Assembly (NCBI GenBank): GCA_947034885.2
Contig: OX344758.2
Coordinates: 7,504,501-7,568,500 of the forward strand
Direction: 5' to 3'
From: Thuidium tamariscinum
Lineage: Eukaryota; Streptophyta; Bryopsida; Hypnales; Thuidiaceae
Length of the DNA stretch: 64,000 nt
Each line of letters starts with the position of its first letter. The stretch's first letter is position 1. The notes beneath the pieces were generated by a model. It was given only the letters and a program-made list of their open reading frames with translations. It ran no database searches and was not told the DNA's origin. Position numbers and translations under genes: made by a program. This document shows positions 4,514-61,740 of this stretch, one piece after another.

Positions 4514-5290
4514 ATTCCTAAAGATTTTGGACTATATTTTCATTTAAAATGTTCCAAAAATGCCCTTTCTTTTACAAGCACCATTTTTTTTCCAAAACAT
4601 TTTTGGATACACATAACCATAGTATCTTATAGTATGCTTATTCAGAAAGATGTAGAAAACATTTGAAAGATTTTCACTGTGTAGATTGCAAGATATTCAC
4701 TGTGTAGATTGCAAGATATTAGTATTTAAATTGAAAAAAAAACTTTTTTTTGAGCTCCATGAAAAATTGGGTAGGTGCACTTCACAAGCTCATATTTATA
4801 TGAAAGAAATGTCGAAAATGATTGTGTGTCTTTGGATTTATTCTTCAAAGTAATTAGATACATGCTTGAAAAATATTAGATCATTTGAAGTTGTTAACTA
4901 TATAGGGAAAAAAATCAAAAAGTAGAAAGAAGTAGAGAATGATTCAAAATACTAAATTGTTAAGATTTTATTTATGAAAATGAAAAATTCTAATGGTGGT
5001 AAGATTGTCATAAACAATATACACTCAATGTTTTATTTCTTTTTCCCAAAATATTGAAAAATAAAGGACTTCAAAGTTTATTTTAGAATAAGAATTCCAT
5101 AAGTGCTTGCAAACAAAACTCTTCACAACATTTGACTCACTGATCAAAATGGAATGATTCAAAGATTTCAATGTAGATATAAGTGTAGAGATCCAATTTC
5201 AAAATTTTATTTCTTCAAGAATTGATTTTCTCTAAGCTGCCCAAGGTGCCCAAAGTGCCCAAGATGGGATAGAAACTATTATTGTACAAT
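4514..5290. mobile_element. Degraded copy of the TTAA/CCCCTAAAGGACC element family
   Basis: The sequence aligns by eye with the complete elements at 48568-49521 (same orientation) and 14202-15128 (inverted). Shared blocks include GTAGATTGCAAGATAT, GGTGCACTTCAC, ACATGCTTGAAAA and GTAGAGAATGATTCAAA. The left end is decayed (CCTAAAGATTTTGG) and the right end is unclear, although TTAACCCCTCAAG at 5332 is a related terminus. About 4670-4712 holds a 22-bp tandem duplication. Confidence 0.55.
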
Positions 5291-5735: not shown

Positions 5736-7087
5736 TTCTTCAAATTTTCAATGGCAAATTCTCAATAGGATGTAATAAATCTCAATATTTTGTAAATTAG
5801 GATCTTTTAGAATAACAAATTGGCATACTTGTTTCATTTCTTTATTTTCAAAATCTGAATGTGAAAAGTATTTAAAAATTTATTTAGAAAATGTAGTCTA
5901 ATAGAAAAAGGAGCAAAAATAATGTTTTTCTAATGAAATGAGTAGTAGATATGGAAAAAAATTTGGTTGTTTCTGGTCTTTGCTCTATACAAATAAACAA
6001 GATTTGGAGAAAAAAAAAATTCAAAATTTTATTTTTAGCAGTTTTTCTAATAAAAACTTCAATCTAATGTTATTAAGAATTCAAAGTAATTAGAATGATT
6101 CCAAATTTTTTGAAGATGTTCCAAACAATTTGAAAACTATATCAATTGTTAAATTAAAAAAATTTACACATATCTAAATTTTTCTTAATTTTGTAGGATC
6201 TAATATGGTCAATTTTGGTTTTCTATTCCTTCTCTTGAACATGTGTACAAATTTGAGAGAACTTTTTTTTTTCTAAATTTTAAATTCAAAAATATCAAAT
6301 TTGCCTTAGATTGCAAGACAAATTTTTTGGAGGGTTAAAAAATCATTATTTATATTTTATAGAAGAATTTCTCCAAACTCTGTATTTTCTTGCCTGTAAA
6401 GTTGATCATCCAAAATTGTTATAATATAAATATTTAAAGGTCAAAACTTTCTCGAAATTAATTCCATGTATACTAGACAAATTATTTTTTAATTATACAA
6501 TTGAAATAAAAAAGTTTAAGCACATCTATGTATAGAAAAATATCAAAGTAGCCCCAAATCCCCAATTCATTGAAAACCTACATTGTCAAAAAGTTGTTAG
6601 GCCTTAAAGCTACTCCTCAATGACAAGTTGTGTGAAAAATTCAAAGAAAAAAAAAGAAAATTCCACTTGTAGTGTGTTGCTCCCAAAATCTATGTTTCCA
6701 AAAAACATGCCTTGAGACCTGAGGATTTAACCTTTTTTTCCTCACATGATCAGTTTAATTTCTAATATTATTGCGTTATGGCAAAAACATCTTGAATTCA
6801 CTTGCTCCTAGTGCTCCAATGTACGAAACACACTGACTGGACATTCAATCTTCTCCAATTCTGGACACAAGCAGCCAATTCGACCAATGCACACTCCAAT
6901 ATGCAAAAATTACAATTTCAAGCAAAGGAGTGAACTCTCCTTACTCAAACATACAAATACAATCAACTAGAATTTCCATATTCCAATGAGATGACTACAT
7001 TTTTCAACTTGACAACACAAGATGATTGAATCATGCTCTGTGAACTCTACATAGCTTCATACACAGTCCAACCTACAACAATAGTAA

Positions 7088-7310
7088 CCCTTAAAATGCC
7101 ATCGTGAATGTTTGGCATCTTTTGAATGACAAAGAATCTTTCCTTGTAGGACAGAAGAATAACTTTTCATCTTCGATATTAGAGGTGGAAAGGGAAGATC
7201 TTCTAGAGTGCTTGGATTTTCAATGAGTATTTTTGGCTTTTCCAAAGTAGATGATGTCACACGATACCAAAATGCACAATTTCCACAGCCACCAATCCGT
7301 CCTTCAAGAG
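7088..7310. mobile_element. Short TTAA-type MITE, copy 1 (223 bp)
   Basis: The left end is CCCTTAAAATGCC, preceded by GTAA. The right end, read inward, is CTCTTGAAGGACGG and is followed by TTAA (7311-7314). The interior ATCGTGTGACATCATCTACTTT and the CCCTTTCCACC block recur inverted at 24230-24409. The ends resemble those of the 0.9-kb TTAA family. A short frame here is shared with the second copy only because the DNA is shared. Confidence 0.6.
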
Positions 7311-7937: not shown

Positions 7938-8602
7938 AATACTACTAAATGTTATATAAGCTATAATCCACAACCAAATAGACACAAACTAAATACAATA
8001 AGCTCATAACAAGAGCAATTAGACAATAAATTTTACAAATTTAGAACGCTAAAAATTATATTGCAAGTATTACTCAAATTTTGAGTGAATGAGTCATACA
8101 AACAGTATGAATTGAACAAAAATCAACTAGACCTTTGGATATACAATCCCAAAACTTGGGAAGATGACTTTTCACAAAGTGAAGGACCTAATCAATTTGA
8201 CTCTTTCAAATCTTTTTAATTCATGTTTTTCCAAGTCCAAGAAAATTCACCCATTTGACTCTGGTAGAATATCAACAAGTCTATTTGACTTGGTAATGGA
8301 AATATGAATAATTGACAAACCTTATTTACACTTCAATAATCAAACTGAAAGAGAAAGTTCAAAAAATTAAGATCACACTCATTTCCATTGGTACTTTAAA
8401 AAGTTGACATACATGTGTGTCAAAAAAATTATATGTGTAGCAAAAAATGTAGAGAATTTGAATTTGAATGGAATTTGAAGATTTTTAATCAATCAAAGAG
8501 TTGAGTTGTCAATAAAAATCATAGAGGACCTATAGGTTGCAATGAATTATTGTTGCATATACTTTAAATAGATTTGACAATATTGTTGTAATATACAATC
8601 AA

Positions 8603-9513
8603 CCTTTAAAGGATTGAGAACATTTTTCTATCAAAAAAACATTCAAAACTACCATTTCTACTGCAATCATCCAAGAAAACAAAAATAGATTAATTTTAGA
8701 ATCTAATTGTAGTATCTTTTACTTAACTTGTTTGAGATCACATGGTAAAAATTTCATGAAGTTTGACCACATAGATTGGAAGATATGAGCATTATAAGCT
8801 AGATTTTTTTCTTGAGTTGTACTTTGCAATTTCAGATGACTTTCACCACTACTTTTGAAATTTTTTTTGTACTATAGAACTTGAATTAAAAAAAATTTGT
8901 GTTAAAAATTGGGTTGAAAATCTGAAAAAGAAATTCACAAAAAATAAACATGATTTCTTTATTAATTTTTTTTTGAGTAGAAGTAGGTCCAAGATTGAAA
9001 TAAAATCTAAGTGATTAATAGCTCTAAGATGGGATTGAAACACAATAATTCTAATGGCAAGATTGCTCTAGCAAGTAAATACAACCTTGTCCAATAATTT
9101 TTTTTGAAAAATGATCAAAATTGCATATACTAATGAATTCTATGAGTTATTTTTTCAAAAAGATGTTTAAATTGCCCCCAAAACAATATTGTCCATAACT
9201 TTCTCATTACTAGTCCAAAAAGAATAATAGTTTAACATGTAGACAAAAATATATTATTTTAAGAAAAAAATTATAAATTATAATTTTGTCTTTTTGCAAA
9301 AAAGAATTTCTTGCCTATTGAGTTTAGTTTTGAACTTTTTGTAGTATAGCTTTTTCTCCTAGGCACCAATTGAAATAAAAATTATATTCCCACAAAGCTA
9401 ATCAATTTTTCTATTTCATGAGAAAGTTTCAAAAAATTTCACCAAAAATTGAGGTTATAGGAATTTCGCCGAAGTCCATTTTGTCTCTTGAGGGGATAAC
9501 ACTCCTTTAGGGG
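8603..9513. mobile_element. TTAA-family TIR element, 911 bp
   Basis: The right end, read inward, is CCCCTAAAGGAG, flanked by TTAC. The left end is CCTTTAAAGGATTGAG, flanked by TCAA. Both flanks look like single-base decays of TTAA. The interior resembles the 50191 copy (for example GTAAAAAT-TCA followed by TTGACCAC). Non-coding. Confidence 0.65.
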
Positions 9514-9524
9514 TTACCACAAAT

Positions 9525-12276: not shown

Positions 12277-12658
12277 GATGTGTTAGAAAAATTGTAATTT
12301 TAGAAGGGAAAAAAAATTCATTTGTTGTATTTAGAATATATTTGCCTCTAGAGCCTTAGATTTTTATAATGATTTCCTATAAGTGGCATAAGATAATAAA
12401 TATTATTAATGGACATGTCAATTTGCATTGAGACAAGCAAGTGGTGTTTTTTTGTAAGTCTATAACTCCCTCTTGTCATAGATGAAAGGTTACCCATGCC
12501 TCAAAATTTGGTGTGAAAGAACCATATGTTGAGAATGACTCAATTGTTTAAGCTTCTTGGACTTAGATGGTGAATTTTTCCCTTTGAAGTCTCTATTAGG
12601 AAGTAGGTTCTATAAAAATTAGTAGGTTTCATACCTCAAGAAATTCTTAGGTCCTTAA

Positions 12659-12960
12659 CCCTTAAAAGTTTTTTCACTATGTTTTTTCCAAAAATGCTCC
12701 AAAATTTTCATTTCTAATACAAGTAACAACTTAAAAAGCAAAAACAAAAAACATTTGTACTTATTCAACTCATAATTGTACTTATTAATAAAGAATTATG
12801 ATTTTTTATTTTGATTGTTTTTGGACACATCTAACCATATGATCTTTTAGTAAACTTATTTGAAAAGATGTCGAAAAATTTTCAAAAATTCCTATGATGT
12901 AGATTGCAAGATACAATGCCTCCCAAAACTGAATAAAAAATCTGAAATGTTTCCACTCAA
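12659..12960. mobile_element. Partial TTAA-family element (5' part)
   Basis: TTAA (12655-12658) is followed by CCCTTAAAAGTTTTTTC, then by sequence like the 48568 copy (CCAAAAATGCTCC and, later, GTAGATTGCAAGATA at about 12898). I could not find a matching right end before the next complete element at 14202. The rest, to 14197, is AT-rich and non-coding. Confidence 0.5.
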
Positions 12961-14201
12961 ACAACCATACCATGAGCATCAATGGACAAAGTCAAAAAGA
13001 ATATATAGAAAGTTGTAGTATACAACATATTACACATTATTATAGAAGTTTGAAGAAATATTAGTTGTGATTTGAAAGAAAATTAATTTCAAAGTTCGTC
13101 GTTTCTAAAACTCAGGTTTGTTGACTTTGAATTAGAATACTTTATTTTTTGTCAATCTTTTTTTAGAACTCAAAAAAAACTTCTTATGCCTTGGCAAGTT
13201 GGTGTACATCATTTCATATTGTTGTACGCAAAAATTGAAGGAAATTTACATTTTATAGTATTTAAAATATCAACAATTATACAAACATACTAATGGTGTT
13301 GGTTTTCACAATATTTGAAGGTTTTTTGGAATCAAGAATATGAAAATGTATCAAGCATTGTATGAAGACTATAGGTTGCAATATGGACCTTCGTTTCATC
13401 TTAATACCCTTACATTTGAAATATTTGTTAAATGAGACAATGCATTTAATTTATATTTCATAGCCACATAATTCATTTTTAGGTGCCATTTTTTCATATA
13501 AAGAATGGAGTTAATGATGCACATGTTTTTAAGAAAAATTTCAAAAAATTTCAATTGTCTTTGAAAATATCACCAAAAAATTGACAAAATGCCAAAAATT
13601 ACTCAAAACTTCATCAAATTATGTGGAAAAATCTAGGCTTTTTTGAGCAATATTGGCATATTTTATAAAATTCCTCATCTTGACTTCTAAAATTTGGCAT
13701 GTATGTGACTCCTATGACATAATATGCAATTATTGTCCAAAAAATACTACTTTCAATGCAAGTTGTGAAAGGTGTGAGGTATCATTGCAAGAGGTGTCAA
13801 AATTCTACTAACCCTATCCAATAAGTTCCAAAAAAACAAAATTTCTATTTATAAACCCTATTATCTTTGAAATTTGCACCCTCAAAAATCTTGAAATTTT
13901 TTCCACACATTCCAAATGTTTGATTTCAAGTTTTCCTTGTTTGGATTTCAAACAAATTTTGTTTTGTGCAAGAAATCATCAAAAAAAAGACTTGTATATT
14001 GTCAATTTACTAGACTTCTTTATAATGTAGAGTAATTAAAGGTAAACCCTTTTTTGATGATAAATTTTTTGCATAAGTATATCTATCAAGATGTAGCATT
14101 GAATAGTGTAGAGGCTCAATTATTTATAGGACAAAAAAATTTATTCTAAAAGGGTTTGAGGTTTGTTGGGAATGAAATATAGATTCATCTCTCACTCTTA
14201 A

Positions 14202-15128
14202 CCCCTAAAGGACCAACATGCCTTTTTTGGCAACATAGCGATTTTGGTTAGGTACGTGTGGCTAGATATTTCGATATTTTGGAACCGAACTTTAGTAGAA
14301 GGTGTGGATAAGGAGTATCTTCAAAGCCCAACAATTTTCGTGACTTTTGACTACATGGTTGAAAAGTTATCGCATAAAATGTTGTTTGTTTCTCAACTTG
14401 GGCAATTTGGGCAGATAAAAAACATCACTTTTTTGGGAAATAAAATTTTGAAATTGGTTTTATAGAACTATATATACATGGAAAGCTTTGAATCATTCCA
14501 TTTGGATTAATGAGTCAAAAGTTATGAAGAATTTTAGTTTGCGGGTAGTTATGGATTCTCTTCTCTAAAATAAACTTTGAAGTCCTTTATTTTACTCAAT
14601 TTTCAATATTTTTGAAAAAAATTTAAAAAATTGGGTGTAGGTTGTTTATTACAACATTTGAACCATTGGGATTAGTATTTTTCAATTCAATAAATAAATT
14701 GTTACCATTTTTGTATTTTGAATCATTCTCTACTTCTTTCTACTTACTATTTTTTTTTGTACATGTTGTACAATTTCAAATGATATGAAAATTTTCAAGC
14801 ATGTATCCAACTTGAATTGGAGAATGAATACAAAGAGTTGCAAACATTTTGGACATTTTTTCATACAAATGTGGCCTTCTGAAGTGCAGCTGCCCGAATT
14901 TTTGTAGTGGAAAAAAAATGATTTTTGTAACTTCAAACACTAATATCTTGCAATCTACATGGTGGAAATTTCTGAAGTTTTTTCTACATCTTCCCAAACT
15001 AGTGCAATAAAAGATCCTACGGTTACAAATGTCAGAAAATGTTGTTTTTTTCTGAAATTTGATAGTTGTCCTAGAAATGACAGTTTTGGAGCAGTTTTAG
15101 TGCAAACATAGTTGTGGTCCTTTAGGGG
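14202..15128. mobile_element. Complete TTAA-family TIR element, 927 bp
   Basis: TTAA at 14198-14201 and 15129-15132 flanks ends CCCCTAAAGGACCAAC (left) and CCCCTAAAGGACCACA (right, read inward). A TTAA duplication with a CCC-start TIR is the piggyBac pattern. The interior is homologous, in inverse orientation, to 48568-49521 and 4514-5290. The short open frames inside (such as 14244-14465) are not shared as proteins between copies. Confidence 0.8.
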
Positions 15129-15132
15129 TTAA

Positions 15133-16549: not shown

Positions 16550-18733
16550 TCAAGTTTGAGAAAATTCTAATGAATGGTAGAGTCCCAAAGGCTTACTAGC
16601 AGGTAGGAAAGGCATTGCAATGTTAGAGATGGCACATCCATTCTCTATGTCTCTTATTTGTTGCAATATTTTGTTCACTTGTCCCATAGATGGTCGGGCT
16701 TTTGGATTTGGAAGGCAACACAACAGGCCCAAACGAAGAAGATCTACAACCATAGTCATATAGACTTCAATATCTACATCCACAATTGTTGAGGTCCCCA
16801 TATCATTGTTGCCACTACTTGTGCTAGAGTTTGAAGGTAATAGAGGAAGTCTTGTTGCATTTGTGACCTCATTGTCTTGATGAGGTGCATGCCTTAAAGG
16901 TTGTAGAGTTTGAAGTAGCTTTGGATCTACTACCTTCAAAAGTGACCCGACTTCATGAGCTCGCCAAATAGAGTGTAATAAAACAAGGTCCTCTGGTTCT
17001 GATGCTTGCATATCCAAAGGATGCCTTCCACACACAACTTCAAGCACCAAAATGCCAAAACTAAAAACATCCAATTCCTTGGTTGCTTTGCCCGTGTATG
17101 GCAACTCGGGAGCCATGTATCCAAGAGTCCCCACAGCCAAAGTCGTTTTGTCCAACTTCTGGTGATCCATCAAGCGAGCGAGGCCAAAGTCTCCCAAATG
17201 CGCTTTGAAATCCGCATCCAACAACACATTGCTAGACTTGATATCTCGGTGCAAGACACAACTTGAGCAATCCTCATGCAAGTATTTTAAAGCAGAACCC
17301 ACCCCTTCAAGAATGGACTGCCGCATTTTCAAAGAGAGACATATTTCTTGACTGCCACTTGTGTGAAGCCACTCGTTGAGGCTTCCATTGGGCATGAATT
17401 CGTAAACCACGAGCAAGCGACCTTTCTCGTTGCACCAGCCTTGCAACTGCACCACGTTGCGGTGCCGAATTTGGCCGAGGCTGGCCACTTCGGCGTGAAA
17501 GAGAGACTCCGCCTGCTTGGGCTCCGAGAAACTGATGTGTTTCACGGCAACAAAATGGGTTCCACTCGGAGTTGCAAAAGATCCTTTGTAGACAGATCCC
17601 GATCCACCTTTGCCGAGCAAATGCTTTTCATCAAAGTTGTGGGTGGCTTTCCGGAGCTCTGCATACGAGAACACATGTGGACGTGCACTATGGCCCAGTG
17701 CAGTGTAGGAGTAACTTTTGGATGGACTCGCAAGTACTGAGATGGACCAGAGAATCACGACAGCAGCTGCCACGACCATTCCCAAAACTCCTGTGCTGAA
17801 GCCAAGCCACGTTCTGGCTTTCCAAACGAGGTTCGGGGTTTGAGAGGGAGGAACACTCAGCTCTGAAATCTCAGTACTAAAGAAGCTCCAGGACAAGAGC
17901 TCATGCGCTTCGACGCGGTGGACGTCGGAGCTTGCCCAAAACGAGAGGTACACATAGTCTCCAAACAGCTCTGCCAATGTGTAATTGGGAATGCGCAACT
18001 GAGGTTCCATTGGTTTCTTCACGTTGGGATTGGACCCATCAGCAAGCCTCACTTCTAGTATCTGGGATGAGCTATAGAAATCAATCCAAGCAGTGAAGAT
18101 TTTGCCGTCGTAGAAATACGAACAGTAGGTTTTGTTGCCACAGAGGTTGTGAGTGTATGCTCCGATGTCATACTCGTAGTCCAGAGTTTTTGCGACCCTG
18201 ATGTAGCAGTTGCTGGGATCTTCGGAATGAGGGTTGTACTTCCCCATGCTAAAAGCAATAACGAAGCCTGGACGAGTGTATCTATGGTTTGGGTCACTTG
18301 GATGGGTAGGACTAATACACGCACCAGAGCGTCCTATTTCGGATATGAAGCCTTGCAGCTTAGCAAGCATTGTGTCTCTGACAAAAACGAAGGTCATTGA
18401 ATTCTCCTCCTTGTCCCTGGGAGATCTGCTGTTGTCCTCAGGTGAGTCCAGAGTGTCGAATGTGAAGGAGAATGAGGTGCTGAACGAAGTAAATCTCCCA
18501 GTTGCTACATCCCGAATGGCTGCCTTCTTGCCATACACTAGCGCTCCGCAAGTCCCTCGTGACTGTGTGGCGCGCCTGTTGACGACGTAAGTACGATTGG
18601 CGCCATTGTGTGCAGCATCTCCGAGAGTTATGAAGGTATCATCCTTGGTGGGGAAGGAATGGAAGTCGAGTCGCGTGTTTTCGCTGGCAACTGATCGAAG
18701 AAACAGAAAGAGGAGAAAACAGGTGAGGTTCAT
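16550..18733 (-). CDS. L-type lectin-domain receptor-like kinase (727 aa)
   Basis: A single-exon membrane receptor kinase, probably at the plasma membrane. Residues 1-17 are a signal peptide. About 20-286 is a legume-lectin-like ectodomain ending in LSWSFFS (280-286). About 309-334 is one transmembrane helix. The kinase runs from about 370 to 695 with loop GKGGSGSVYKG (374-384), Lys398, Glu415, HRDIKSSN (495-502, catalytic Asp497), DFG (515-517) and APE (541-543). It is an RD kinase with all catalytic residues, so probably active. The family senses extracellular signals in defence and development; the ligand is unknown here. Two features are odd. The lectin metal-site acidic residues look replaced (Ala160, Ser162). 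A roughly 45-residue Ser/Asn-rich insert (about 608-653) splits the C-lobe before LGLLCCLPNPKARPSM. Met1 leads directly into the signal peptide, which supports this start. Confidence 0.93.
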   Translation of the reverse strand: MNLTCFLLFLFLRSVASENTRLDFHSFPTKDDTFITLGDAAHNGANRTYVVNRRATQSRGTCGALVYGKKAAIRDVATGRFTSFSTSFSFTFDTLDSPEDNSRSPRDKEENSMTFVFVRDTMLAKLQGFISEIGRSGACISPTHPSDPNHRYTRPGFVIAFSMGKYNPHSEDPSNCYIRVAKTLDYEYDIGAYTHNLCGNKTYCSYFYDGKIFTAWIDFYSSSQILEVRLADGSNPNVKKPMEPQLRIPNYTLAELFGDYVYLSFWASSDVHRVEAHELLSWSFFSTEISELSVPPSQTPNLVWKARTWLGFSTGVLGMVVAAAVVILWSISVLASPSKSYSYTALGHSARPHVFSYAELRKATHNFDEKHLLGKGGSGSVYKGSFATPSGTHFVAVKHISFSEPKQAESLFHAEVASLGQIRHRNVVQLQGWCNEKGRLLVVYEFMPNGSLNEWLHTSGSQEICLSLKMRQSILEGVGSALKYLHEDCSSCVLHRDIKSSNVLLDADFKAHLGDFGLARLMDHQKLDKTTLAVGTLGYMAPELPYTGKATKELDVFSFGILVLEVVCGRHPLDMQASEPEDLVLLHSIWRAHEVGSLLKVVDPKLLQTLQPLRHAPHQDNEVTNATRLPLLPSNSSTSSGNNDMGTSTIVDVDIEVYMTMVVDLLRLGLLCCLPNPKARPSMGQVNKILQQIRDIENGCAISNIAMPFLPASKPLGLYHSLEFSQT

Positions 18734-47140: not shown

Positions 47141-47454
47141 ACATTGAACTTCCAATTGGTGGGGAAATTTACAATAAAATTTTGGAATAATGTACTTGAT
47201 TACTTGAACAAGTTAACAAAAAGATCGACAAGTTAGTTTTCTTATAAAAAAATTAATGATGAAGATTTTGATTTTTGACATTCCTTTGGGGACAAGTATT
47301 TCGTATTTTGAAGTGCATTTGGGGGATCCTTTTGGGATTAATGACATTTTTGAATCACAATTTGTCCATGTCATGATTTTAATTAAAATTGCCATGAATT
47401 TTTCAGGACCCCGCAAAAGGAATTTTGTCATTTTTGACTAATGTCCTTTGGGGC

Positions 47455-49100
47455 ATTAGTCACATTAGTCACAATTTAGTATATTTGCCACAACTTTTGC
47501 ATGGGCAATTGAAATTTTCTAGATTTTTTTATACATGCTTGGCATGATGTGGAACACCTACTTGAAAATTTTCAAAAGCAAAGGACACTTTTAGAATTTT
47601 GTACAATTTTTTGATGGTTTTGACTTACAACCCAAAAAGAAATAAAATTTGAAGTCACTTATCCAACTTCGAATGTCAATATGCTTCATTAGGATGCATT
47701 AGAAGTATTTGGAGATTTTCAAAAAAATTTGAAAAAGAAAAGGCTAGAAATTTGGGAGATATGTTCAATTGTGACTAATGTGACTAATGCTCTTTGGGGC
47801 ATTAGTCACATTAGTCACAATTTAGTATATTAGCCACAACTTTTGCATGGGCAAATAAAACTTTCTAAATTTTTTCATACATGCTTGGCATGATGTTGGA
47901 CACCTACTTGCAAATTTTCAAAAGCAAAGGACACTTTTAGAATTTTGTACAATTGTTTGATGGTTTTGACTTACAACCCAAAAAGAAATAAAATTGGAGG
48001 TCACTTGTCCAACTTCAAATGTCAATATGCTTCATTAGGATGCATTGGAAGTATTGGGGGATTTTCAAGAAAAATTGAAATTGAGAAGGATAGGAATTTA
48101 GGAGATATGTTCAATTGTCGGACCTCTGGCGTCCGCCTCGGGTCATCCAACGACAGGCCCGTCCGCCTCGGAAGTCGTCGGCCGAACCTGGCGTCCGACA
48201 GCCCCGCTATGCATCCGCCCTTCCGATGTCCTCGTCCGCCTTGTCGACTTCGCCGTCCGCCCTTCCGACCGCCCAGCGTCCGCCCTTTGGCCCTGCTCGT
48301 CCGCCTTGACAACCGAGTGGACGTTCGACAAAGGCGTCTGCCCTTCCGACCGCCCAGCGTCCGCCCTTTGGCCCTGCCCGTCCGCCCTGCCGACCGAGTG
48401 GGCGTCCGACAAAGGCGTCTGCCCTGCCGACCGACTAACCTCCGCCGAAGACCGCTCAGATTTCAAGTCCAAACTCAACATTGGATTCCACAAGTGAAAA
48501 CTTGACATTGGATTCCACAAGTCCAAACTCAACATTGGGTTCCTAGAAGTCATATTTAAAGCTTTAACCCTTAAAGGATCGTCAATATACTTTCTCCAAA
48601 AGCGCTCCAAAAGACCAAAACTGCCATTTCTAGTACAAGTACCAAAAATTTTGGAAAAAAACTTTTTTTGACATATCTGACTGTAGGATATTGTATTATA
48701 TAGTATCAAAAACATGTAGTAAAAATTTCAAACATTTCCACCGAGTGGATTGCAAGATATAAGCATTCAAATTAACTAAAATCATTTTTTTGACTTTGTG
48801 AAAAGCAAGGCAGGTGCACTTCACGAGCTCACATTTCTATGAAAAAATGACCTAAATGGTGGTGCTTCTTTGGATTTGTTTTCCTAGACAAGTTGGGCAC
48901 ATGCTTGAAAATTTTCAAATCATTTGGAATAGTACAACATATAGGAAAAAAATAGTAAGTATGTAGTAGTAGAGAATGATTAAACATACTAAATTATTTA
49001 TAGTTGAAATATGGAATTGAAAATTTCCAATCCCAAATTCTCAATGGTTGAAAATTTGAAATGTTGTAATAATGTATCTACATCCTACGATTTTATTTTT
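47455..49100 (+). repeat. Left arm of the large inverted repeat
   Basis: This arm carries about two 340-bp tandem units, then a GC-rich block (48117-48460) with an 81-bp duplication, then the first 533 bp of a TTAA-family element. The same order occurs inverted at 51029-53190. The inner edge is sharp: CATCCTACGATTTTATTTTT is shared, and the arms diverge after 49100 / before 51029. Confidence 0.85.
48117..48460 (+). repeat. CpG-rich GTCCGCC block with 81-bp tandem duplication
   Basis: CCTTCCGACCGCCCAGCGTC recurs 81 bp later (48261 and 48342). Because 81 is a multiple of three, long frames stay open on both strands. The right arm holds a shorter version (51640-51822). The words GTCCG/CGGAC link it to the terminal blocks of the element. 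Confidence 0.75.
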
Positions 49101-49521
49101 GTCCAAGAATATTGGAATTTGGGTAAGATAAAGGATTTCGAAGTTTATTTTTAGAGTAGGAAATCCAAAATTGCCCAAAACCAAAAATCCCACATAACTT
49201 TTGACTCATTCATCAAAATGGAATGATTCAAAACTTCACGCGTATACAAAATTCTAGAAAATCAATTTGTGGAATTCTTGTTTATGAAAAAAGTGATTTT
49301 CTCTGATTTACATGAAATGCCCAGTTATGAAAAAAAATAACATATTAGGCTATAACTTTTGACTTATATTTTCAAATGTCATGAAAATTTGGTGCATATG
49401 AAAGATCTTCCTTGCCTCCACATTCTATTCAAATTTCAGCCTCAAATCTAAAAATCCCCGCTCGTAGGTACCTGCCCAAAATTTCTATACATCCCAAAAA
49501 GACAGTGCGGTCTTTTAAGGG
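48568..49521. mobile_element. Complete TTAA-family TIR element, 954 bp
   Basis: TTAA at 48564-48567 and 49522-49525 flanks CCCTTAAAGGATCG and, inverted, CCCTTAAAAGACCG. The interior aligns with 14202-15128 (inverted) and 4514-5290. The element crosses the inner edge of the large inverted repeat, so its first 533 bp are also present, inverted, at 51029-51561 with the outer TTAA preserved. Confidence 0.8.
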
Positions 49522-49606
49522 TTAAAATGGGAAGCGTTGGAAAAAGCATCCAATGTTCAATGTATGTGTGAAATTGAGTTTCATTCCGCACATTTAAAGA
49601 AAGTAA

Positions 49607-49709: not shown

Positions 49710-50190
49710 TTCTTCATCATTTTTGCATTATGGGTGTCATATAAAATAATAAATAGTGAAAGTAAATTGATGAATGATCCAAGGATTCAACACATTATTA
49801 ATTAAAAAAATGTATACACCCTACTTTAATAGAAAAAATATATATTCTTGACATATTTCTAAATGCAAACTAGTAAGGGATAAAATTATTTGAAGTACAC
49901 TCCTTCATATTCACATTCACAGATTCACTTACATTCAAATGAAAGATTCTATAATTTTTCACATTTTCAAATTTTTTTTCAAGTATAATTGCATCATTTT
50001 CAAATTTGACTCATCCTCTTATGCAATCTTGAATGTCATCATCTTCCAACTGTAGAATTGTAGAAAGTATGGTGATACATTTTTCTAATTTGTTTAGAAA
50101 TTGAAATATTAGGCCCTTACAAGTTACAATTTGAGAGTTGAGAATGTCTTGCAATAAAATATGGTTATAAATCTCTCCCTATATTGTTAA

Positions 50191-50815
50191 CCCCTAAAGG
50201 ACCAAGGCCATTTTTTTGTTACAAACCACTCAAAACTGCCATTTTTGCTGCGTTCACTATAAGAAAACCAAAAAAATACTTCTCTTGGGATCTAACCGTA
50301 GGATCTTGTACTTTATTTATCTAGGATAATGTGGTAAAAATATCAGATGCCTTGACCACCATTCGTGGAATTTTTTGGAACTATGGAGTATGGACCTTGA
50401 ATTAAAATTTTTTAAGGAATTTGAAGAACTTAGAACTGAGTTGAAAGTCTAAGACAAAAATTTCAAGAAAGATAGGCTTGATTTTCATTATTCAAAAAAT
50501 AGTTAAGTACAAGTAAGTCCAAGATTGAAAGAAAAACTAAATCATTAATAGCTCTAACATGGGATTGAAACACAATAATCTCAATGGTGAGATTGTTCTA
50601 GCTATTTTCAACCCCCCGTCCCTTATTTTCAATATTTTGTGTTCATTGGATCATAATTGTTGCTCTTGGGCATCAATTGTGAAAAAAATTACATTCCATG
50701 AAAGTTAATCAATTTTTTTAATCTTCTGAAGAAGTTTGTAAAAACAAAGATCAAATTTGAATTTCAGCCCGCAGGTACTAGCACAAATCACATGTTTCCC
50801 CTAAAGGACCAAAAG
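50191..50815. mobile_element. TTAA-family element, left end plus rearranged right end
   Basis: TTAA (50187-50190) precedes CCCCTAAAGGACCAAGGCC. The interior resembles 8603-9513 (GTGGTAAAAAT-TCA, CAAGATTGAAA). At the right, CCCCTAAAGGACCAAAAG (50798 on) lies in direct instead of inverted orientation, so this end is rearranged or belongs to another copy. Confidence 0.5.
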
Positions 50816-51028
50816 TGAATGATCTCTAGGATTTCAAATTTCAATTGGAATTCCATTAAATTTGAAAATTCCTTTCTCATGGGAGGTGTGTTATTGTGTT
50901 TGGAACAATTTGAATCAACTAAATTTCAACTATTGATATTGACAATTTCCAATATTTAAGACTAGTATCATTATAATTTCCTAGAATTACAAATTCTTTC
51001 AAAAGAGATTAATTTATGATTCCTAGAA

Positions 51029-53190
51029 AAATAAAATCGTAGGATGTAGATACATTATTACAACATTTCAAATTTTCAACCATTGAGAATTTGGGATTGG
51101 AAATTTTCAATTCCATATTTCAACTATAAATAATTTAGTATGTTTAATCATTCTCTACTACTACATACTTACTATTTTTTTCCTATATGTTGTACTATTC
51201 CAAATGATTTGAAAATTTTCAAGCATGTGCCCAACTTGTCTAGGAAAACAAATCCAAAGAAGCACCACCATTTAGGTCATTTTTTCATAGAAATGTGAGC
51301 TCGTGAAGTGCACCTGCCTTGCTTTTCACAAAGTCAAAAAAATGATTTTAGTTAATTTGAATGCTTATATCTTGCAATCCACTCGGTGGAAATGTTTGAA
51401 ATTTTTACTACATGTTTTTGATACTATATAATACAATATCCTACAGTCAGATATGTCAAAAAAAGTTTTTTTCCAAAATTTTTGGTACTTGTACTAGAAA
51501 TGGCAGTTTTGGTCTTTTGGAGCGCTTTTGGAGAAAGTATATTGACGATCCTTTAAGGGTTAAAGCTTTAAATATGACTTCTAGGAACCCAATGTTGAGT
51601 TTGGACTTGTGGAATCCAATGTTGAGTTTGGACTTGAAATCTGAGCGGTCTTCGGCGGAGGTTAGTCGGTCGGCAGGGCAGACGCCTTTGTCGGACGCCC
51701 ACTCGGTCGGCAGGGCGGACGGGCAGGGCCAAAGGGCGGACGCCAGGTTCGGCCGACGACTTCCGAGGCGGACGGGCCTGTCGTTGGATGACCCGAGGCG
51801 GACGCCAGAGGTCCGACAATTGAACATATCTCCTAAATTCCTATCCTTCTCAATTTCAATTTTTCTTGAAAATCCCCCAATACTTCCAATGCATCCTAAT
51901 GAAGCATATTGACATTTGAAGTTGGACAAGTGACCTCCAATTTTATTTCTTTTTGGGTTGTAAGTCAAAACCATCAAACAATTGTACAAAATTCTAAAAG
52001 TGTCCTTTGCTTTTGAAAATTTGCAAGTAGGTGTCCAACATCATGCCAAGCATGTATGAAAAAATTTAGAAAGTTTTATTTGCCCATGCAAAAGTTGTGG
52101 CTAATATACTAAATTGTGACTAATGTGACTAATGCCCCAAAGAGCATTAGTCACATTAGTCACAATTGAACATATCTCCCAAATTTCTAGCCTTTTCTTT
52201 TTCAAATTTTTTTGAAAATCTCCAAATACTTCTAATGCATCCTAATGAAGCATATTGACATTCGAAGTTGGATAAGTGACTTCAAATTTTATTTCTTTTT
52301 GGGTTGTAAGTCAAAACCATCAAAAAATTGTACAAAATTCTAAAAGTGTCCTTTGCTTTTGAAAATTTTCAAGTAGGTGTTCCACATCATGCCAAGCATG
52401 TATAAAAAAATTTAGAAAGTTTTAGTTGCCCATGCAAAAGTTGTGGCTAATATAGTAAATTGTGACTAATGTGACTAATGCCTCAAAGAGCATTAGTCAC
52501 ATTAGTCACAATTGAGCATATCTCCGAAATTCCTAGCCTTCCCAATTTCAATTTTTTTTGAAAATCCCCAAATACTTCCAGTGCATCCTAATGAAGCATA
52601 TTGACATTTGAAGTTGGACAAGTGACCTCCAATTTTATTTCTTTTTGGGTTGTAAGTCAAAACCATCAAACAATTGTACAAAATTCTAAAAGTGTCCTTT
52701 ACCTTTGAAAATTTGCAAGTAGGAGTCCCTCATCATGCCAAGGATGTATAAAAAGATTTAGAAAATTTTAGTTGCCCATGCAAAAGTTGTGGCTAATATA
52801 CTAAATTGTGACTAATGTGACTAATGCCCCAAAGAGCATTAGTCACATTAGTCACAATTGAACATATCTCCCATAATCCTATCCTTCTCAATTTCAATTT
52901 TCTTTGAAAATCCCCAAATACTTCCAATGCATCCTAATAAAGCATATTGACATTTGAAGTTGGACAAGTGACCTCCAATTTTATTTCTTTTTGGGTTGTA
53001 AGTCAAAACCATCAAACAATTGCACAAAATTCTAAAAGTGTCCTTTACTTTTGAAAATTTGCAAGTAGGAGTCCCTCATCATGCCAAGCATGTATAAAAA
53101 AATTTAGAAAATTTTAGTTGCCCATACAAAAGTTGTGGCAAATATACTAAATTGTGACTAGTGTGACTAATGTTTCAAAGGGCATTAGTC
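51029..53190 (-). repeat. Right arm of the large inverted repeat
   Basis: Reverse-complement match of 47455-49100, but longer because it carries about four 346-bp tandem units instead of two. Its GC-rich block (51640-51822) is shorter and lacks the 81-bp duplication. The long frames at 51412-51912 and 51456-51989 are the same DNA as those in the left arm and are not genes. Confidence 0.85.
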
Positions 53191-60552: not shown

Positions 60553-60899
60553 ATTTAGTCCCACTCATTTATTCTTAATTCTTACATCTTAATTTTGTCA
60601 CCATTGAGGTTGAAACCTAGTCTTTACCATCACAATAACAAGCCTTTGCATTCATTGAACCTAATTCCCTTCAATGACCAATTCCACATTTTTATTCCAT
60701 TTATAAGATAAAACAATCCATTATGGTCATAATTGCTAGTTTGTTTCATGCCATCGTTGAAATTTCTTAATTTTTTCACCACACAAAGACAAGTGTGAGA
60801 AATAGAAAGAGCAAGAGAAATTATATTTTTCAAGAAAGTATGAATTTGCTATGAGTTTTTGAAGTTTTTAGCCCAATAGAGTCTATAGACTACCCTTAA

Positions 60900-61736
60900 C
60901 CCCTAAAAGCCCAAGGGGTTAGGACAAAACACAAAAGTGTTATAAAATATAAGTATTACAACTTTTTTGAAGTTATTATCAAAGAAGATAATGTAAAGCA
61001 CAAAAAGTAGAAAGTATCCATACAGTCAAAGTAAAAAAAATATTTTTAGATTATTTTTAAATGAATTTTGAAGATATAACTTCAAAAATTCACCAAAAAT
61101 ACAATTTCTATTTTTAGGATTTGAAATTTTTTTTGATTGGTCAAAATTGTGTTTCTTATTGATTCATAAAAGAATGCAAAATATTCAACCTCTAAAAGCC
61201 GAAGAGATTAAGACAAAATACAAATGTGTTATAAAATATAGGCTTTACAACATTTTTGAAGTTAGCATCAAAGAAGATAATGTAAAGCACAAAAAGTAGA
61301 AAGTATCCATATGATCAAAATTAAAGAAATATTTATAGATTCTCTTCAAATGAATTTTGAAGATATAACTTCAAAAATTCACCAAAAATACAATTTCTAT
61401 TTTTAGGATTTGAAATTTTTTTTGATTGGTCAAAATTGTGGTTTTCATTGATTTGTTAAAAAATAAAAAGTATTTACTAATGAGAGCATCAGTACTTCCC
61501 CCAAATAGTAAATTTTTCAACACTAAGCAATTTTAGACACTTTGTACTATTTCTCCTTTTTTTTGCTATAACTTTTGTTTGACCGTAGTGATCTTAGTTT
61601 TGAATATCAATGTTGAAAGAAAACCCAATTTTTTCAAATCTGAAAAAAAAAAATTTTGAAAAAAGTTTTTTTTTGCCCGAAAATTTTGCCTGAAGTCAGG
61701 CATCGACCAAAAAATGGTCGTTTGAGCACTTAGGGG
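60900..61736. mobile_element. Complete TTAA-family TIR element, 837 bp, with internal duplication
   Basis: TTAA at 60896-60899 and 61737-61740 flanks CCCCTAAAAGCCC and, inverted, CCCCTAAGTGCTC. The interior consists of a tandem duplication with a period of about 290 bp (60900 to about 61190, then to about 61480; for example AAGTAGAAAGTATCCAT occurs in both). Different interior from the 14202/48568 group, so a second subfamily. Confidence 0.75.
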
Positions 61737-61740
61737 TTAA

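Follow-up and report, generated by a model that had tools for sequence, protein, structure and literature searches.

The closest described systems are piggyBac and piggyBat (PDB 6x67 and 9c0f), which have a terminal inverted repeat (TIR) starting with CCC and TTAA on both sides. The elements described here have the same ends and lie in a window of 64,000 nucleotides (the whole stretch of DNA that was analysed, G000:C10:7504501-7568500) of a 363-Mb genome in 19 contigs. They are almost certainly miniature, transposase-less transposons of the piggyBac type (miniature inverted-repeat transposable elements, MITEs). Transposases found elsewhere in the genome share with piggyBac and piggyBat a homologous catalytic domain with four aspartates and, in 12 of 13 aligned frames, a C-terminal Cys/His stretch. 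What differs from these two systems is the land-plant host, the measured element length of about 5.1-7.1 kb, and the presence of several diverged families side by side with many short relatives. Short piggyBac-type derivatives are also reported from animals, namely Daphnia mPok (PMC4912750) and coral MITEs (PMC2872659); the present case differs from these in its plant host and in the number of ends of a single TIR type that can be recognised, 19,612.

PiggyBac is in wide use in genome engineering (PMC7351741). It is absent from the cut-and-paste superfamilies that a 2008 paper gave as known from plants at that time (PMC2528002). A 2015 survey names PiggyBac among the superfamilies present in every group it covers, land plants among them (PMC4438587), and the repeat table of the fern Ceratopteris has 1230 PiggyBac entries with 122,417 bases in total (PMC6890710). 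The first-pass annotation of the window held that piggyBac is not known as a normal part of land-plant genomes; in view of these last two sources this was too strongly worded. They name the superfamily in land plants by counts or list, and the present data add ends, transposase, empty sites, and recent copies. A 2023 review of animals states that piggyBac was isolated from insects, fungi, and plants (PMC10813416), and another 2023 review that every DNA transposon found in plants leaves a footprint (PMC10905368). Among the matches listed from open-licence literature there was no description of a native moss piggyBac and no characterised native land-plant piggyBac. One match, from a paper on the genome of a moss, concerned the term "piggybacking" and not a transposon. 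The kind of element is already known, and notable are the land-plant host, the scale, and the recency.

Main elements of the window

Three elements carry the finding; the first is listed together with its two ends.

14198..15132, + strand: non-autonomous piggyBac-type element, 927 bp between the TTAAs, with TTAA and a CCCCTAAAGGACCA TIR at both ends; left end similar to the 5' ends of transposase-bearing elements, right end to their 3' ends
14198..14215, + strand: TTAA target copy and left TIR of this element
15115..15132, - strand: right TIR and TTAA target copy of this element
48564..49525, - strand: second, diverged element of the same group in opposite orientation; right end similar to the transposase-bearing 5' ends, left end to the 3' ends
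60896..61740, no strand assigned: third TTAA-bounded TIR element of a different family, with ends CCCCTAAAAGCCC / CCCCTAAGTGCTC and an internal duplication

TTAA and a CCC TIR stand at all six ends, which bears out the TTAA-flanked TIR elements proposed at these places in the first-pass annotation. On the + strand of the window, TTAA directly precedes CCC at 13 of 530 places, the real ends among the 13. The first element has a perfect 18-nt inverted repeat, TTAACCCCTAAAGGACCA, at 14198-14215 and 15115-15132. With TTAA included, the inverted repeats of the second and third elements are 19 nt long and 89% and 84% identical, respectively. The 48615-49525 part of the second element is 72.5% identical to the first. 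Within the third element, a stretch of about 290 bp is tandemly duplicated at 60896-61474, with 88.5% identity.

MITEs of the PIF/Harbinger superfamily (Tourist-like), with a 3-bp TTA or TAA duplication, were considered, as such duplications are common among plant MITEs. The inverted repeat is symmetrical across all four TTAA bases, which is unexpected for a 3-bp duplication, and the transposase found with these ends (below) has the PF13843 domain. This origin is therefore extremely improbable.

Transposase-bearing elements

The PF13843 domain (DDE_Tnp_1_7) has 658 first-look candidates in the genome. All 116 scored candidates reach 1.4e-70 or better; by a hand count, the matching part is free of stops in about 74 of them. 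No match was found in 14 control genomes. The open 600-codon frame at locus L039 has PF13843 as its sole Pfam domain (E 2.5e-79). In PDB this protein found two solved relatives, piggyBat 9c0f (E 9.7e-27) and 6x67 (E 1.6e-22), the latter titled "Transposase", which we take to be piggyBac of T. ni. Searched against the genome, the L039 protein had 75 matches, with 73 of 842 candidates scored, and its identity to 12 other aligned transposases is 35-83%. Four catalytic aspartates, their positions set by alignment to the PDB matches and by known piggyBac residues, are present in every one of the 13 transposases aligned, and the Cys/His stretch is missing from one.

In the 1.5-kb flanks of the transposase matches no convincing TIR was found, since the elements extend beyond those loci. 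Five of six transposase loci with extended flanks have a TTAA-anchored inverted end pair with 11-13 of 13 bases paired. The L039 element is 7121 bp long, with ends CCCCTAAAGGTCGGAGG and CCCCTAAAGGACCAAAC and TTAA outside both. L061 is 6722 bp long, with the same ends and TTAA flanks, and its transposase is 95% identical, with one TGA in frame. L064 has an open frame and ends CCCCTAAAGGACCAGCC / CCCCTAAAGTTCC, and the ends of L062 are related. A DDE_Tnp_1_7 transposase bounded by the same TIR, which the first-pass annotation had named as the thing to look for, thus exists in this genome, with TTAA flanks. No other transposase was found with this TIR; those of Tc1/mariner, Harbinger, and Kolobok were not searched for. 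Kolobok-type elements belong to another superfamily that also duplicates TTAA, but this TIR goes with DDE_Tnp_1_7, for which piggyBat and piggyBac are the matches in PDB, so a Kolobok origin has hardly any probability.

Window elements were compared with the transposase-bearing elements over 260 bp per end (cut-off E 1e-3, 35 bp). From base 1, the left end of the 14198-15132 element matches the 5' ends of L064 (71.8% over 220 bp) and L039 (70.6% over 153 bp), and its right end matches the 3' ends of L064, L065, and L066 (68-69% over 251-264 bp). With the 3' end of L039, the right end shares only an inner block of 40 bp (90%). No left-to-3' or right-to-5' match of this element passed the cut-off. 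The 48564 element has the same correspondence with orientation reversed. Because transposase elements with this TIR and TTAA exist and the window ends align with their own counterparts, the 14198-15132 element is a non-autonomous, internally deleted relative of the transposase-bearing elements. As a derivative of the L039/L064 group it is homologous at both ends, each to its own counterpart, with identity of about 70%; at this identity, the direct parent was not found. The 60896 element gave no match to any of the 260-bp ends compared, and its TIR resembles that of L037 by eye. As a piggyBac element it is less well supported than the other two, with the same end pattern and no transposase-bearing parent identified.

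Both ends of the MITEs at L004 and L007 match the 5'-type end of the window element, which suggests that some MITEs consist of a pair of 5' ends.

Abundance of ends and target site

The pattern TTAACCCCTAAAGGACC with up to 2 mismatches occurs 9851 + 9761 = 19,612 times genome-wide, and its reversed control pattern 23 + 40 = 63 times. TTAA was built into this pattern, and therefore the window and loci L015-L060, which were picked for transposase and not for these ends, were also scanned for CCCCTAAAGGACC alone. With up to 2 mismatches and chance matches kept in, 21 distinct places were found, of which 14 have TTAA outside; no base is conserved at outward positions 5-10. The seven places without TTAA include apparent chance matches and ends with an altered flank or TIR. 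In this sample, not a genome-wide count, the outer base at VTAACCCCTAAAGGACC / NTAACCCCTAAAGGACC ends is T at 14 of 15 NTAA ends (p 1.8e-6 against a background of random outer base). The scoring of flanks suggested in the first-pass annotation thus came out for TTAA in the sample.

These counts bear on a reading of the copies as Tc1/mariner-type MITEs with TA duplication and a TIR starting ACCCC in a TTAA context. At an occupied site the letters are identical under both readings. With a TA duplication the outer bases would be free, and in the sample they are not; moreover, the transposase of elements with these ends is of the piggyBac type. For these two reasons the Tc1/mariner reading is disfavoured and very improbable.

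Joined-flank queries were made for 17 sites with one TTAA each, and 40 of 4122 candidates were scored. The L011 site accounts for 39 of the 40 scored matches, and ten of ten fetched empty relatives of L011 have a single TTAA without a gap at the junction. For L013, five distinct empty places have one TTAA and are ungapped; one of them lies inside the inserted element itself. Empty sites with a single TTAA, sought in the first-pass annotation in sister loci or related species, were thus found within the same genome. They also bear on the proposal that TTAA is part of the element end and not a duplicated target. TTAA is nearly invariant at the ends, as that proposal expects, but the single TTAA in these L011 and L013 relatives leaves it with scarcely any probability.

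Several results weigh against a piggyBac origin of the window elements. Only two of the 17 joined sites have matches among the scored candidates. Three empty relatives are ungapped and do not have TTAA: that of the complete 5096-bp element at L073 has TGAA (97.4% identity), that of L062 TCAA, and that of the 60896 element AAGA. Four others are gapped at the junction, namely two low-identity relatives of L013 and two relatives of L007. Among the six extended transposase loci, L016 has no TTAA-anchored inverted end pair above 7 of 13 bases, and at three of six further loci (L063, L065, and L066) a single end was found each. The window copies are only about 70% identical to transposase-bearing elements, and the letters would be identical if the target were TTAA, only TA were duplicated, and the element started with A and ended with T. 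Set beside these are PF13843 in complete members, the catalytic aspartates, the CCC-start TIR (not at L016), and TTAA present once at the empty L011 and L013 sites and on both sides of filled ones. The first-pass reading of TTAA and a CCC-start TIR as piggyBac is supported by the transposase with the same ends and by the single-TTAA empty sites.

At L028 and L025, one TTAA is common to the ends of different elements, and at L017 and L019 such ends are a few bases apart. This clustering could reflect either target preference or chance in TTAA-rich repeats.

Recently mobile sister family

Another family has 11 loci, each with an open 1023-codon frame. These loci are 99.925-100% identical over 3984-3992 bp when compared within orientation (groups of eight and three). 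Over the full 5096 bp, L048 of the smaller group is 99.98-100% identical to three members of the larger one. All 11 start at TTAA beside 11 different flanks. The four complete copies of 5096 bp are 99.98-100% identical and have TTAA on both sides and unrelated flanks; one complete copy sits in a TTAA beside the end of a window-type MITE. To judge from these nearly identical copies with open frames, the family is one that transposed recently. It was rejected as the parent of the window elements and is a sister family, because its TIRs CCCTGAAACGCCGGG / CCCCTAAACGCCGGC agree with the window type in no more than the first bases. The MITE ends compared differ from those of the window by about 14-33%, and therefore the window copies are old. 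We see about an even chance that the genome holds a currently active native piggyBac of a land plant, probably a moss, in the form of the 11 near-identical open-frame copies, with perhaps on the order of ten thousand short relatives.

Other features of the window

The remaining relatives of these elements have no strand assigned.

8601..9516: diverged full-length relative, 78% identical to copy L011; flanks today TCAA / TTAC
4517..5256: degraded relative, by homology
50187..50743: partial relative, by homology; TTAA and intact TIR at 50187
51027..51563: partial copy of the 48564 element within an inverted duplication (610-nt arm, 99%)
12807..12916: fragment of a relative, by homology; TTAACCC end at 12655
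6589..6710: fragment of a relative, by homology

Of the degraded copies named in the first-pass annotation, those at 4514, 8603, and 50191 agree with the homology at 4517-5256, 8601-9516, and 50187-50743, and for that at 12659 only the nearby fragment at 12807-12916 was recovered. The shorter copies named at 7088, 21637, and 24230, for which a comparison with 22 elements gave no match at E 1e-5, are putative.

The arms 47421-48197 / 51737-52513 and 48491-49100 / 51027-51636 are 98-99% complementary and represent a recent inverted duplication. It includes the 48564 element together with an inverted, truncated copy of that element. A legume-lectin receptor kinase gene is coded at 16550-18733 as a single open frame of 727 aa.

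Host

Land-plant-type nuclear genes are present, namely a light-harvesting protein and the lectin receptor kinase in the window. The light-harvesting protein scores 433.8 bits to 8htu and 433.4 to 7xqp, which we take to be moss, 419.8 to 8c29 (presumably spruce), and 415.7 to 5zji (presumably an angiosperm). Chains of the 7d0j/6kac type, presumably from green algae, reach at most 381 bits. When scores are summed, the multi-domain chain 9vfj_2 ranks higher, but its best single stretch reaches 288.8. The host is likely a moss or a close relative of mosses. Light-harvesting genes with near-identical scores are clustered at G000:C1:50504919-50561060 and C4:6915062-6922176.

Proposed mechanism and meaning

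A transposase of the piggyBac type (DDE_Tnp_1_7), produced from another place in the genome, would bind CCCCTAAAGGACC-type ends, excise the element, and insert it at TTAA, so that TTAA would stand on both sides. Transposases of this group probably moved the window copies, and the elements may be active at present. Hairpin formation and seamless excision would be expected by analogy with known piggyBac biochemistry. The piggyBac reading accounts for abundant TTAA-flanked repeats that are otherwise liable to misfiling as Stowaway or Tourist MITEs. If it is true, the questions whether excision in plants is seamless and how these elements are silenced could be studied in a native system, namely a land-plant lineage whose piggyBac population is large and was recently mobile.
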